A stretch of DNA of 64,000 nt from Theionarchaea archaeon (GCA_018992685.1 JACVGT010000018.1:286578-350577), one strand, 5' to 3'. Shown: positions 20,203-25,591, counted from the first letter of the stretch. Notes: generated from the letters alone by a model not told the origin. A program made the numbers and translations.

Positions 20203-20979
20203 CTACAGTTCTTTCTGCTGACAGCATTCAACAAGTGTTTCAGCTGCCTGCATAGGATTGTCTGTCCTGAATTCTGACGAAAAGAGTCGGAACAAAAGCT
20301 GTACATACCTTTCCATTTCTGTGAGTTGCTCTTGCTCAGATATATCCTGATTGAGCTGAGGGATCTGAAAATCTGTCTTTAAAGAATGGGAGACAATCCA
20401 GGAGGCTGCAACAAAAATGAAGGCGTGCTGGATGAGGAACCTGCTCTGGGAAGACAGTCTCTGTATGGTGAAAACGATGCTTAGATATCGCCATATGGAT
20501 TGAGGATTGTCACTCTCCGTGGTGCGGTGCAGTATTTCATGGGTGAGGAGTTCCAGCACCTTCTGATCAGATTGGTGCCCAAGTGGAATGCTGAGTGGAG
20601 TGCTTCTGGGCCATGGACGAAAGAAGGACATCACAGGAAACACGTCCAGAATCCCATCATAGAAGATCCACAACTCTTCCATCAAGGAAATGATTCTCTT
20701 CTGGTTGGAATCCCACACTCGTTCAAGGTGTTGTTTGAATTCACGCAACTCTTCACTGAAGGCAGGCCACTCTGCAGAAAAAGAGTCCCGAAAAGAGGTT
20801 ACTTCCCGTCGGATGGGAAGGGAAATGCTGGAGAGCACAGCATCCAGGGATGTGCTGGAGACGAAAAGGCTTTCTACCTCTCTTGACCACAGATGGGATT
20901 TCTCTGATGAGAGCTGGTTTCTGGCATATCCCAGAAAATTGAGTGGTTCTGATACGTGAAAGATCAGTCGTAGTGTCAT
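20203..20979 (-). CDS. HExxH (HEILH) protein at the end of the RiPP operon
   Basis: Read from ATG 20979 (MTLRLIFHVSEP; GTGATG just upstream) it has 258 residues; the frame is open to ATG 21093. Near the middle, LELLTHEILHRTTE contains H-E-x-x-H, the zinc motif of gluzincin-type peptidases. The rest is helical, with no signal peptide. It is the last gene after the methyltransferase, 55 bases downstream. A role as leader peptidase or immunity factor for the peptide product is inference. A metal-binding but non-peptidase protein is also possible, since no third ligand can be named. Confidence 0.5.
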   Translation of the reverse strand: MTLRLIFHVSEPLNFLGYARNQLSSEKSHLWSREVESLFVSSTSLDAVLSSISLPIRREVTSFRDSFSAEWPAFSEELREFKQHLERVWDSNQKRIISLMEELWIFYDGILDVFPVMSFFRPWPRSTPLSIPLGHQSDQKVLELLTHEILHRTTESDNPQSIWRYLSIVFTIQRLSSQSRFLIQHAFIFVAASWIVSHSLKTDFQIPQLNQDISEQEQLTEMERYVQLLFRLFSSEFRTDNPMQAAETLVECCQQKEL

Positions 20980-21034
20980 GGTATCATCACATTGGAGGTA
21001 CGAACTGAACCCTCGTCTTTGTTGTTGGGCCAGT

Positions 21035-21829
21035 CTATCGTTTTCGAGCAATGGCCTGTAGATGGTTTCCAACTGGACCGAACCCTTCTTCATTCAGGGT
21101 GATCTCGTAGGTCAGGATCTTTCTCCTGAATTCTGCATCGGTTTCAAGTCTCTCTCCCAAGTCTTCAAAATACGCTGCCCCGAGCGTGAGAAACACAGGT
21201 TTTCCCACCACTTTTACGAGATCCGCACCTGCTCTGTCAAATTCCTCCTTGAAAACTCGTGGAGTAAAGGTATACGTGCGCGTACCCCTCTTATCCACTG
21301 CAACTCCTTTGTCCAGAATGGTTTCTCCTTCACCAAAGCCATGGAGAACAGATTGTCTCATGAAAAACATATATCTATTGTCTACCCCAATTTCAATGTA
21401 GGAACCGGGCCTGGCCACTCTCACCAGCTCTTTTATTGCCTGGAAGTGATTTTCTGCACAGTAGGAGACAGGGTCACCCTCTGACAACACGAAGTCAAAG
21501 TGGTCTGAAGGGAAGTCCAGAGCCGTGATGTCCCCTTCTGTTACAAAGATGCGGTCAGTCAGTCCTTCCTTCTCGATTTTTTCAGAGGCTTCTGAAAGCA
21601 TTTCCGGAGAAACGTCCACCAGGTACACAGTATATCCTTCCCTGGCAAGCTGTATACTCCATTTGCCCGTTCCTCCTCCTGCATCAAGAATAACACCCTG
21701 TTCGGGAAGATAGTCCGTGATGTACTTCCAGGTAAGGGCATCATAGATCCCCCAGGATCCTCCAGAAAACATCTTGTCATATGACTCGGCCAGTCGACTG
21801 TAGGTTTCTCTTGCATTCTCTCCTTTCAT
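21035..21829 (-). CDS. Class I SAM-dependent methyltransferase
   Basis: A 264-residue methyltransferase. Motif I VILDAGGGTGKWSIQLA (about residues 46-62) and the acidic VYLVDVSPEML bind S-adenosylmethionine; VTEGDITALDF and DFVLSEGDPVSYC follow. The C-terminal half probably shapes the acceptor site. It begins five bases after the PqqD-like gene ends, with GGAGTGAT as its ribosome binding site inside that gene's end. It therefore belongs to the radical SAM - PqqD operon and may methylate the peptide product, but a small-molecule target cannot be excluded. Confidence 0.85.
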   Translation of the reverse strand: MKGENARETYSRLAESYDKMFSGGSWGIYDALTWKYITDYLPEQGVILDAGGGTGKWSIQLAREGYTVYLVDVSPEMLSEASEKIEKEGLTDRIFVTEGDITALDFPSDHFDFVLSEGDPVSYCAENHFQAIKELVRVARPGSYIEIGVDNRYMFFMRQSVLHGFGEGETILDKGVAVDKRGTRTYTFTPRVFKEEFDRAGADLVKVVGKPVFLTLGAAYFEDLGERLETDAEFRRKILTYEITLNEEGFGPVGNHLQAIARKR

Positions 21830-21833
21830 GCCA

Positions 21834-22088
21834 TCACTCCAAGAGCTTTAACTCCCTGAATCTGGACAACGTTTTCTCGACGTCCTCCTCCACAGTACTT
21901 CTGTCACTCTCCTCATCTGTGAGCATGTCCAGAAGGTCTCCTTCTGTCATCCCTTGCTGACAGGCTTCCATGATGGCAAGAGCTGTCTCATTAAATCTGT
22001 AGATTTTACCTGTTCCCATGTGAATGATGTATGTCTCATCAGGTTCCTGCCTGATCAACACCTGGGAACTAACCTTGGGCAGACTCAT
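21834..22088 (-). CDS. PqqD-type peptide recognition protein
   Basis: An 84-residue protein with the PqqD/RRE fold pattern: SSQVLIRQEPDETYIIHM, then GTGKIYRFNETALAIMEAC and DLLDMLTDE, then a C-terminal FRELKLLE. PqqD-family proteins bind the leader of a ribosomal peptide and present it to a radical SAM enzyme. ATG 22088 is chosen because GGAGGAA (22095-22101) sits just upstream; an earlier in-frame ATG at 22106 lacks this. The start overlaps the end of the radical SAM gene by 20 bases, so the two are translationally coupled. Confidence 0.85.
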   Translation of the reverse strand: MSLPKVSSQVLIRQEPDETYIIHMGTGKIYRFNETALAIMEACQQGMTEGDLLDMLTDEESDRSTVEEDVEKTLSRFRELKLLE

Positions 22089-23358
22089 GGGCATTCCTCC
22101 TTTCATACATATACTCTAAATAGGGCGTCACAAGTTGCTTTATGTCAATACATGCCGGAGTAGAGAGATCCTCATTGACCAGCAGTGATTGATATCCGCA
22201 ACCGCCTCCGCAGACCAGTGCCAGTTCACATTCCCTGCAGGTATCCATAGAGAAGATTGTCCTGTCTCTCCATTTCTGCATGTTCCCATTGAATGACAAT
22301 TCCGGCGTATACACTCCAATACGATGTTCTTTCCAGCCCAGCATGGCTCGACAGGGGTACACATCTCCAAACGGGTCGAATACGTACCGGTTGGTTACTG
22401 CAGCGCAATTCCAGAAGGATGGCCAAAACCGGGGGCGCTCAGTGTACAGAGACGCCAGTTTCACATAAGGTGACGCCTCGAAAAACTGGAGGTCTTCCTG
22501 CAGTGCCACATCCAAGACCTGCCTGTAAATCGAAAACAGCTTCTCAGAATTCTCAATATCCGGAATCTGATCACACAAGTGGATCATGGCAAAGTGGACG
22601 GTGGGGTCATCAATCCACCCCCTCTCTCTGTAAAAGAGGGCAAGCTCGTGTATCTGTGATAGAACCTCTGGATCGCTGTTGGTTCGAAGTAGTAATGTGA
22701 TCCCCATATCCCTGGCTTTCTCTATGTTCCTGACAATAATGTCGAAAGTCCCCTTTCCACTTCTTGAAATGCGTCGCCCATCATGAACAGATCGAGGGCC
22801 ATCCAGCGTGATCTGAACAAATTCTATGTTCAATGACGAAATCTCGGGGAGAAAAGAATGTAACTCCACACCATTGGTGAAAAGTGTGAACTTATACCCC
22901 AGATCATCCCCTTTGCGTAATATGTATTTTACAATATCAGCATTCTTCATCATCAGGGGCTCTCCCCCTGTCAGGGTCAGAGGTTTCTCCCGTGAACATT
23001 GTGCATTCAGCTCTTCCATGGCGGTAAATGCCTTGTCCACTGTGGATTCATCTATCACCGTGTTCATCATCTGAGGGCTCTTTACCCATACTTCATAGCA
23101 GTAGGGGCACCGTAGATTACAGTCATATGTTACCGCAATCGTGCTGTCTGCACACAGGGCTGTCTTCTTCATCAAGAAACTGCAAAAAGCCTGGGCTTTC
23201 TCTGCCTCCTCTTCCGGACGTAAATTCGTAAAAAAGGGTTTCAACTCCTCAGTGACTGTACCTTCAAGTAATTGTTCTCCAGTTTTCTTATCCACAAAAA
23301 AGACTGCACCTGACAATCCATTGAGCAGTACGTACTTGTCCTTCACTGCAAATACCAT
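22069..23358 (-). CDS. Radical SAM/SPASM peptide-modifying enzyme
   Basis: A 429-residue enzyme. A 70-residue N-terminal section (YVLLNGLSGAVFFVDKKTG) precedes the radical SAM motif CNLRCPYC (Cys80, 84, 87). TLTGGEPLM follows. The C-terminal SPASM domain has NCAAVTNRYVFDPFGDVYPC and CRECELALVCGGGCGYQ...PAC, enough cysteines for two auxiliary 4Fe-4S clusters. SPASM enzymes of this build install thioether or C-C links in ribosomal peptides, or act as sulfatase-maturing enzymes; no sulfatase is near. PqqD overlaps its end, and two Cys-rich peptide genes lie just upstream. Translation may start at ATC 23379, directly after a perfect ribosome binding site. Confidence 0.93.
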   Translation of the reverse strand: MVFAVKDKYVLLNGLSGAVFFVDKKTGEQLLEGTVTEELKPFFTNLRPEEEAEKAQAFCSFLMKKTALCADSTIAVTYDCNLRCPYCYEVWVKSPQMMNTVIDESTVDKAFTAMEELNAQCSREKPLTLTGGEPLMMKNADIVKYILRKGDDLGYKFTLFTNGVELHSFLPEISSLNIEFVQITLDGPRSVHDGRRISRSGKGTFDIIVRNIEKARDMGITLLLRTNSDPEVLSQIHELALFYRERGWIDDPTVHFAMIHLCDQIPDIENSEKLFSIYRQVLDVALQEDLQFFEASPYVKLASLYTERPRFWPSFWNCAAVTNRYVFDPFGDVYPCRAMLGWKEHRIGVYTPELSFNGNMQKWRDRTIFSMDTCRECELALVCGGGCGYQSLLVNEDLSTPACIDIKQLVTPYLEYMYERRNAHESAQG

Positions 23359-23386
23359 GGTATACTGGCTCTTTCTGATGGACTCA

Positions 23387-23394
23387 CCTCCTTT
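23387..23394 (-). promoter_or_regulatory. Strong ribosome binding site facing an ATC codon
   Basis: GGAGGTGA is followed by GTCC and then ATC, in frame with the radical SAM gene; the first ATG is 21 bases further on. A TATA-like element (CTTTTTAAG, 23411-23419) would start the transcript about here. Either ATC is used as a rare start, or the ATG mutated and the downstream ATG serves. Confidence 0.45.
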
Positions 23395-23519
23395 CTGTTC
23401 TGGCAGCCCGTCTTAAAAAGGTTTTCTCAATCCCTCAATTCCTGTCGCGTCCTCCATGACTGCGACTGCCACAGAGACTGCTTCCACCACGAGTCCACGT
23501 TTAATAGTCCAAAAATCTC

Positions 23520-23545
23520 TTCAAAAAAAGTAAAAAGAATAGGAA
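23520..23545 (-). terminator. T-rich end of the first peptide transcript
   Basis: On the minus strand, shortly after the stop of the 25-residue gene, two T runs (the complement of AAAAAAA and AAAAA) form a typical archaeal terminator. This would make the peptide gene its own unit, produced in excess over the enzymes. Confidence 0.4.
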
Positions 23546-23576
23546 ATGTTTGCGCCTTTGTAGTGCTGTATCACGC

Positions 23577-23654
23577 CTAATCTGCGATGAAAGCGCAGCA
23601 CATGCACTGGTCGATCTCTACAGAAATCTCTTCAATCTTAGCGTTCGTGTACAT
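23577..23654 (-). CDS. Cys-rich RiPP precursor candidate 1 (25 residues)
   Basis: The frame encodes MYTNAKIEEISVE followed by IDQCMCCAFIAD. AGGTGATA lies three bases before ATG, and a TATA box lies 33 bases upstream. Its twin at 23961 shares MYT-x-A, EIS and an identical EIDQCMCCA. The 27 bases coding EIDQCMCCA are the same in both, while the tails differ. Placement upstream of a radical SAM/SPASM - PqqD - methyltransferase operon marks it as the likely substrate. The short acidic head would be the leader and the C-M-C-C segment the modified core. The chemistry is not known; thioether links are the natural guess. I cannot name a class. Confidence 0.75.
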   Translation of the reverse strand: MYTNAKIEEISVEIDQCMCCAFIAD

Positions 23655-23686
23655 GGATATCACCTGCTCTCCCTATTTTTTCTTTT

Positions 23687-23696
23687 CTTATAAACT
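23687..23696 (-). promoter_or_regulatory. TATA box of peptide gene 1
   Basis: AGTTTATAAG on the minus strand lies 33 bases upstream of the start codon, the same distance as in the twin gene. The predicted leader is only about 12 bases and holds just the ribosome binding site. Confidence 0.65.
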
Positions 23697-23960
23697 TTTC
23701 GGATAAGAATAGATAGGCTAAAGGACGCATAAGACACTTTGAATTTTCCAAGAGATATATAATCCAGGCCCAGAATAGCCTAAAAGGCAGTACAATATCC
23801 TGATAGCGTAACTGTCTGGCTTTGCCCCACTTGAACATCACGTCCGTTGACTTTCATCAGCTTGCCCTGACAGTACCGATCATTGAACTTGGAACCACAA
23901 AAAAGAAAGAAGGAAAGAGAAAGAAAGAGAAAGAAAAAAAGTGAAGAAAATCGGAAAAGC

Positions 23961-24059
23961 TTATGCAACGACTCCGATGTTGTCTATGGGGGCAGCAGCG
24001 CAGCACATGCACTGGTCGATCTCCATAGAAATCTCTTTGATTTCAGCTTTTGTGTACAT
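23961..24059 (-). CDS. Cys-rich RiPP precursor candidate 2 (32 residues)
   Basis: The frame encodes MYTKAEIKEISME, then IDQCMCCAAAPID and NIGVVA. Like its twin it has AGGTGATATCC before ATG and a TATA box 33 bases upstream. The tail after CMCCA is longer (AAPIDNIGVVA) and unlike the twin's FIAD. A long pyrimidine tract (minus strand, 23893-23958) follows the stop and probably ends the transcript. Conservation is strongest over the EIDQCMCCA region and the promoter, as expected for a duplicated precursor whose core must fit one enzyme. It is short and would be missed by most gene callers. Confidence 0.75.
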   Translation of the reverse strand: MYTKAEIKEISMEIDQCMCCAAAPIDNIGVVA

Positions 24060-24090: not shown

Positions 24091-24100
24091 ACTTATAAAT
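24091..24100 (-). promoter_or_regulatory. TATA box of peptide gene 2
   Basis: ATTTATAAGT on the minus strand, 33 bases upstream of the start codon, matches the geometry of the first peptide gene. This supports recent duplication of promoter and gene together. Confidence 0.65.
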
Positions 24101-25508: not shown

Positions 25509-25591
25509 GTGAGTTCCTCCTTCGATGTCCCTTCTCTATGAGGATTTCTTTATAAGGTTTGCCCCCTACTTTTCATTCATTCTGACTTCTC

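Follow-up and report, generated by a model that had tools for sequence, protein, structure and literature searches.

SCIFF and ranthipeptide systems pair a SPASM-type radical SAM maturase (CteB, PapB, CefB, geopeptide) with short Cys-containing precursors encoded beside the enzyme. These precursors have six Cys or CX3D repeats, and the SCIFF precursor carries its six Cys in about forty-five residues. PQQ and mycofactocin loci bring together a short precursor, a PqqD-type protein, a SPASM enzyme, and a putative peptidase. To our knowledge, few RiPP systems have been described among archaea other than haloarchaea and methanogens, and the full-text literature on "Theionarchaea" yielded passing mentions and, judged by title and abstract, nothing on its RiPPs. 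Some published RiPP loci contain an HExxH protein, including those of the aKG-HExxH enzymes (ChlB/ChlH, PflC, PosC; TIGR04267), and HExxH enzymes of such loci can be oxidases (PMC12636437).

We analyzed a window (the whole stretch of DNA, 64,000 nucleotides) from a Theionarchaea genome of 3.03 Mb in 45 contigs, for which a reading made from the sequence alone had proposed a new RiPP system with CMCC peptides. The locus shares with SCIFF and ranthipeptide systems the domain layout of the radical SAM enzyme and the short Cys-containing precursors beside it, and CteB is the best match in both sequence and structure. However, the local maturase scores far below every curated cut-off, the precursors, of 25 or 32 residues, carry a single CMCC box holding three Cys, and the locus adds a separate PqqD protein, a methyltransferase, and an orphan HExxH protein. 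The combination of short precursor, PqqD protein, SPASM enzyme, and putative peptidase resembles PQQ and mycofactocin loci, but PqqE and MftC are not the nearest relatives of the radical SAM enzyme, and neither peptide has PqqA or MftA sequence features or matches any family. The RiPP proposal is well supported by conserved precursors, a PqqD protein (PF05402), and a maturase nearest to peptide thioether enzymes. We conclude that the family is real and conserved in Theionarchaea and probably a new one among RiPPs, with a new precursor family and gene combination within a known kind of system. Its chemistry can be tested directly, since both precursors are very short and the enzymes are compact and expressible.

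Precursor genes and locus organization

The features of the locus, in order of descending coordinates, are as follows.

28737-27670, minus strand: third radical SAM/SPASM protein, first in transcription order
27700-26819, minus strand: 293-aa protein, diverged and S16 (Lon-type) peptidase-like, between two radical SAM genes
about 26883-25798, minus strand: second radical SAM/SPASM protein, start uncertain
25549-25556, minus strand: TATA box of the MFS transporter (its own box)
25508-24267, minus strand: MFS transporter, candidate exporter (PF07690, E 4e-48)
24092..24099, minus strand: TATA box of pepA, TTTATAAG, with conserved block AAAGATTTATAAGT upstream; kept in the sister genome, inferred promoter
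24059-23961, minus strand: pepA, precursor peptide gene, 32 aa, MYTKAEIKEISMEIDQCMCCAAAPIDNIGVVA (ORF, ortholog, dN/dS)
23898..23950, minus strand: T-rich tract 3' of pepA, candidate archaeal terminator, also T-rich in the sister genome
23687..23694, minus strand: TATA box of pepB, TTTATAAG; kept in the sister genome, inferred promoter
23654-23577, minus strand: pepB, precursor peptide gene, 25 aa, MYTNAKIEEISVEIDQCMCCAFIAD (ORF, ortholog, dN/dS)
23511..23547, minus strand: T-rich tract 3' of pepB, candidate archaeal terminator from its sequence
23412..23419, minus strand: TATA-like box of the enzyme operon, TTTTTAAG, which is TTTATAAG in the sister genome
23358-22069 (ATG) or 23379-22069 (likely ATC start), minus strand: radical SAM/SPASM peptide maturase (PF04055, TIGR04085, CteB)
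22106-21834, minus strand: PqqD-family RiPP recognition element, 90 aa (PF05402), start possibly at codon 7 (22088)
21829-21035, minus strand: class I SAM methyltransferase, 264 aa (PF13649, E 1e-20)
21093-20203, minus strand: HExxH-motif protein, THEILHRTTESD, candidate metallopeptidase without known family; start may be 20979

The sequence-only reading had described two tiny genes with a common EIDQCMCCA segment, followed on the same strand by radical SAM/SPASM, PqqD, methyltransferase, and HExxH genes, and this arrangement is present on the minus strand. The peptide genes lie about 200-700 nt from the enzyme genes. The latter had been called mostly overlapping, which holds for the radical SAM and PqqD genes (38 nt); the PqqD and methyltransferase genes are 4 nt apart, and the overlap of the methyltransferase and HExxH genes hangs on an uncertain start. 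The ORF after the HExxH gene (20150-18471) is presumably uvrC.

The entire locus, including both peptides, occurs in identical gene order in Theionarchaea archaeon SZ_28-30 (JACVGW01), the sole relative of the same genus and family compared, with enzymes 61-87% identical. The pepA ortholog (L068, 7764-7862) encodes MYIKSEIEEISMEIDQCMCCAAAPIDNIGVVA and the pepB ortholog (L068, 7390-7467) encodes MYIRSEIEEISMEIDQCMCCAVIVD. Between the two genomes, pepA has a dN of 0.04 and a dS of 0.64 (dN/dS about 0.07), and pepB a dN of 0.17 and a dS of 1.12 (dN/dS about 0.15). The 11 base changes in pepA cause 3 amino-acid changes against a random expectation of 7.6 (P 0.002), and the 17 base changes in pepB cause 7 against 10.9 (P 0.012). 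These patterns indicate that both peptides evolve as coding genes under purifying selection. The recurrence of the same peptides, order, and enzymes in a second Theionarchaea genome exceeds chance, although synteny on its own is weak evidence because the two genomes belong to one genus and housekeeping neighbors are syntenic too.

Conservation is uneven along the peptides. The EIDQCMCCA block is identical in all four precursors. The pepB tail differs between species (FIAD/VIVD), and the tails of pepA and pepB differ from each other. In the pepA tail AAAPIDNIGVVA the two species differ only synonymously and the protein sequence is unaltered. This tail thus appears to be important, and the product or its processing probably depends on it. 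At leader positions 3 and 5, both host peptides have T/A and both SZ_28-30 peptides have I/S, and the leaders thus match each other within a species rather than their orthologs. Such agreement is expected if one recognition protein reads both leaders; gene conversion would produce the same pattern.

A DNA pattern for EIDQCMCC, allowing up to two mismatches, had four sites in 115 genomes of the phylum, all in the two CMCC loci, and the reversed-pattern control gave 0 matches. A looser pattern, EI[DE]xCxCC, added one match in a Thermococci genome (L187), which was rejected as a CMCC peptide because that frame holds no ORF of at least 20 aa. There was no EIDQCMCC in viral contigs, 80 related radical SAM loci from other organisms had no CMCC-type peptide nearby, and a literature search for "CMCC motif" found nothing. 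The linkage of motif and enzymes is perfect and exclusive, based on two genomes of one genus. The proposal that the motif recurs beside SPASM-PqqD enzymes elsewhere is thus confirmed in one other genome; the label "archaeal" holds for Theionarchaea, with nothing so far beyond them.

The intergenic DNA near pepA and pepB is poorly conserved, except for the TATA box TTTATAAG, the ribosome-binding region AGGTGATATCC, and the start. A TATA box and a Shine-Dalgarno site are conserved in front of both peptide genes, which look like separate transcription units. An Rfam search found no element at the locus, and in a scan for bacterial promoters and terminators the signals were at or below shuffle level. 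The ATG of the radical SAM gene at 23358 is without a clear ribosome-binding site. An ATC at 23379-23377 on the minus strand lies in frame, seven codons (21 nt) upstream of this ATG, with no intervening stop. It sits 4 nt behind GGAGGTGA, a spacing similar to that between AGGTGA and the starts of the peptide genes, and the surrounding stretch is almost unchanged between the host and the sister genome. Starting here would add the residues xRKSQYT, resembling the N-termini of paralogs. Spacing, conservation, and paralog-like N-terminus together make the ATC the likely start codon.

The radical SAM maturase and its partners

The radical SAM enzyme (23358-22069) matches PF04055 (E 1.8e-15) and the SPASM model TIGR04085 (52.9 bits, cut-off 27). 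The CxxxCxxC cysteines C80, C84, and C87, and the C-terminal SPASM-type cysteines C318, C336, C374, C377, C383, C387, and C403, are invariant in eight aligned sequences. Its NCBIfam scores are 145.6 bits for CefB (cut-off 600), 124.4 for TIGR04463, 118.7 for geopeptide (cut-off 400), 108.6 for Clo7bot, 105.7 for PapB (cut-off 340), 97.3 for DynA, 94.3 for SCIFF (TIGR03974, cut-off 425), and 66.5 for the anaerobic sulfatase maturase (TIGR03942, cut-off 349). The PqqE and MftC models are absent among the 25 best NCBIfam matches. The best solved relative in the PDB, using a family profile, is CteB (5wgg, E 5e-34), the thioether enzyme of SCIFF, and CteB also ranks first in Foldseek with a predicted structure of medium quality (pLDDT 65). 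A sulfatase-maturase identity was rejected, as it is weaker than that of peptide maturases in NCBIfam, PDB, and Foldseek. The enzyme, for which the sequence-only reading had named a place among sulfatase-maturing enzymes as the contrary case, is not closest to these; peptide thioether maturases are nearer. A tree of 89 relatives places it beside the SZ_28-30 ortholog, and the enclosing large clade combines Theionarchaea relatives and bacterial peptide maturases (SH-aLRT 99). PADLOC matches (viperin, mad2 methyltransferase domain) were taken as superfamily-level only.

The N-terminus of the modeled structure has a strand-strand-strand-helix order, and the CteB alignment begins at residue 22; this may suggest that the N-terminus is itself a PqqD-like domain. 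An hhalign comparison for such a domain there gave nothing (1.8%).

The standalone PqqD protein scores 43.7 bits against PF05402 (cut-off 23.4). Identity with the sister genome is 81% for PqqD and 87% for the methyltransferase. The HExxH protein is 61% identical to its sister ortholog, in which HExxH and a downstream QHAFI are kept. It has no Pfam or NCBIfam match, occurs in 2 of 115 genomes besides one weak partial match within a 1149-aa frame, and its AlphaFold model is poor (pLDDT 43). Unlike the aKG-HExxH enzymes of other RiPP loci, it is not recognized by TIGR04267, which at E <= 0.001 matches nothing anywhere in the host genome, and an identity as an aKG-HExxH hydroxylase was rejected. 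HExxH oxidases of RiPP loci need oxygen, and an oxygen-dependent role is unlikely here because the lineage is thought to be anaerobic. At the level of its motif, the protein is a candidate leader peptidase.

The MFS transporter is conserved beside pepA in the sister genome and may be part of the system as product exporter. The 293-aa protein matches the S16 region of Thermococci proteins, presumably recognizable S16 members, and aligns with the S16 (Lon) core by hhalign (probability 93% over 117 columns). No Pfam match was found for it. The Ser of GWS and the Lys of QAK, a possible Ser-Lys dyad, are kept in both genomes. This protein may be a leader protease or a member of a separate neighboring system. 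The second radical SAM/SPASM protein has NirJ2/AhbD-like scores below cut-off. Membership of the second and third radical SAM proteins and the S16-like protein in the system is uncertain.

Proposed pathway and competing explanations

We consider it probable that the CMCC locus encodes a PqqD-guided RiPP pathway, and from its observed genes, their conservation, families, and linkage we infer the chemical steps, their order, and export. Each transcribed from a separate promoter, pepA and pepB would provide short precursors that consist of a common leader, MYxxxEIEEISMEIDQ, and the core CMCCA. PqqD, as a standalone protein, would bind the acidic leader EIEEISMEIDQ and present the peptide to the radical SAM/SPASM enzyme. 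This enzyme most likely forms a thioether (or another crosslink) with the CMCC cysteines, linking their sulfur to a nearby residue. The methyltransferase would then probably methylate the peptide, the leader could be cut off by the HExxH protein or by the nearby S16-like protein, and the product may leave the cell through the MFS transporter.

The same gene content could also serve the production of a small peptide-derived cofactor or metal chelator, with EIDQCMCCA crosslinked, methylated, and excised and the rest discarded. The parallel with PQQ and mycofactocin gene content favors this, as does the identity of EIDQCMCCA in four precursors whereas the pepB tail varies and the tails of the two genes differ. 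The unchanged pepA tail makes it less likely that the CMCC block is simply excised, the absence of PqqE and MftC from the best 25 models argues in the same direction, and we regard this explanation as unlikely. Its more specific form, in which CMCC would be excised into a cysteine-based archaeal cofactor or metal-binding compound in PQQ/mycofactocin style with a new kind of HExxH enzyme, appears quite unlikely.

Two further explanations leave the peptides unmodified or give them a regulatory role. Three clustered cysteines could bind metal, and the peptide genes are separate transcription units, so they might be unmodified metal-binding microproteins next to an operon that acts on something else; in both genomes the peptides are linked exclusively to the SPASM-PqqD pair, and paralogous loci are arranged alike, which makes this distinctly improbable. 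The Cys-Met-Cys-Cys run precedes genes that use S-adenosylmethionine, as might be expected of regulatory leader peptides in which stalling at Cys/Met codons controls the downstream SAM-dependent operon. Yet both ORFs come with a promoter and a T-rich tail of their own, the operon promoter is separate, the N-terminal part is conserved as protein with synonymous changes, and Rfam gave no element. We know of no established case of ribosome-mediated attenuation in archaea, and consider such regulation very improbable.

Related radical SAM clusters in Theionarchaea

The CMCC locus draws attention to the unusual abundance of radical SAM peptide maturases in this lineage. Its enzyme belongs to a Theionarchaea expansion, and either genome has a dozen or more related maturases. 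PqqD domains also occur in proteins adjoining the paralogous enzymes, and PqqD-based peptide recognition thus fits the lineage. Within the loci retrieved, a Cys-dense small ORF lies near 11 of the 37 family genes and 9 of the 103 controls, with a p of 0.0045 that is indicative only, as the ORF filter is crude and the loci are related; pepA and pepB themselves failed the four-Cys filter of this count. One such ORF beside a paralog encodes MKALRVNKKLWTNVLIVDMNESPSLCEIIVTPYGVCGCGGCCCAFYCRTLIC. Compared with the CMCC locus, clusters of the MKxxxLNKKxW... CGCGGCC type share radical SAM enzymes (30-38% identical), PqqD domains, and small Cys-rich ORFs, but differ in leader and core sequences, in having PqqD within longer proteins, and in their many tandem radical SAM genes.

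In both Theionarchaea genomes, radical SAM/SPASM genes have Cys/Gly-rich small ORFs next to them, several with an MKxxxLNKKxW leader; these ORFs probably represent several further uncharacterised RiPP families:

L070, 8931-9089
L079, 7270-7422
L075, 8945-9094, 11109-11273, and 17243-17410
L077, 6637-6777
L080, 6233-6355
L081, 7849-8097
L071, 8954-9157

In both genomes, a tandem radical SAM pair and an apparent transporter gene are preceded by a small ORF with tandem CALEVQPTF repeats (L072, 10883-11110; L082, 8550-8726), which looks like a repeat-core precursor. A nearly identical small ORF, MNMTILIEAEEQIMEPLCITEGTGSWCC[RK]ICHPYV, occurs by a radical SAM pair at L073 (9109-9225) and L085 (3190-3306). 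It also adjoins a protein of about 610 aa (MILNCLPPYSYDIPNPALGYLKGFL...), relatives of which are found again at other loci of this sort, L071 and L080. Finally, two genomes from this class share a 39-aa peptide, MKIETLYTTKEEITSGCQVPPNFYGCPNLCITIxDEESE (L045 and L046, 1278-1399), encoded directly ahead of a radical SAM/SPASM gene, with a gene of roughly 390 aa downstream.
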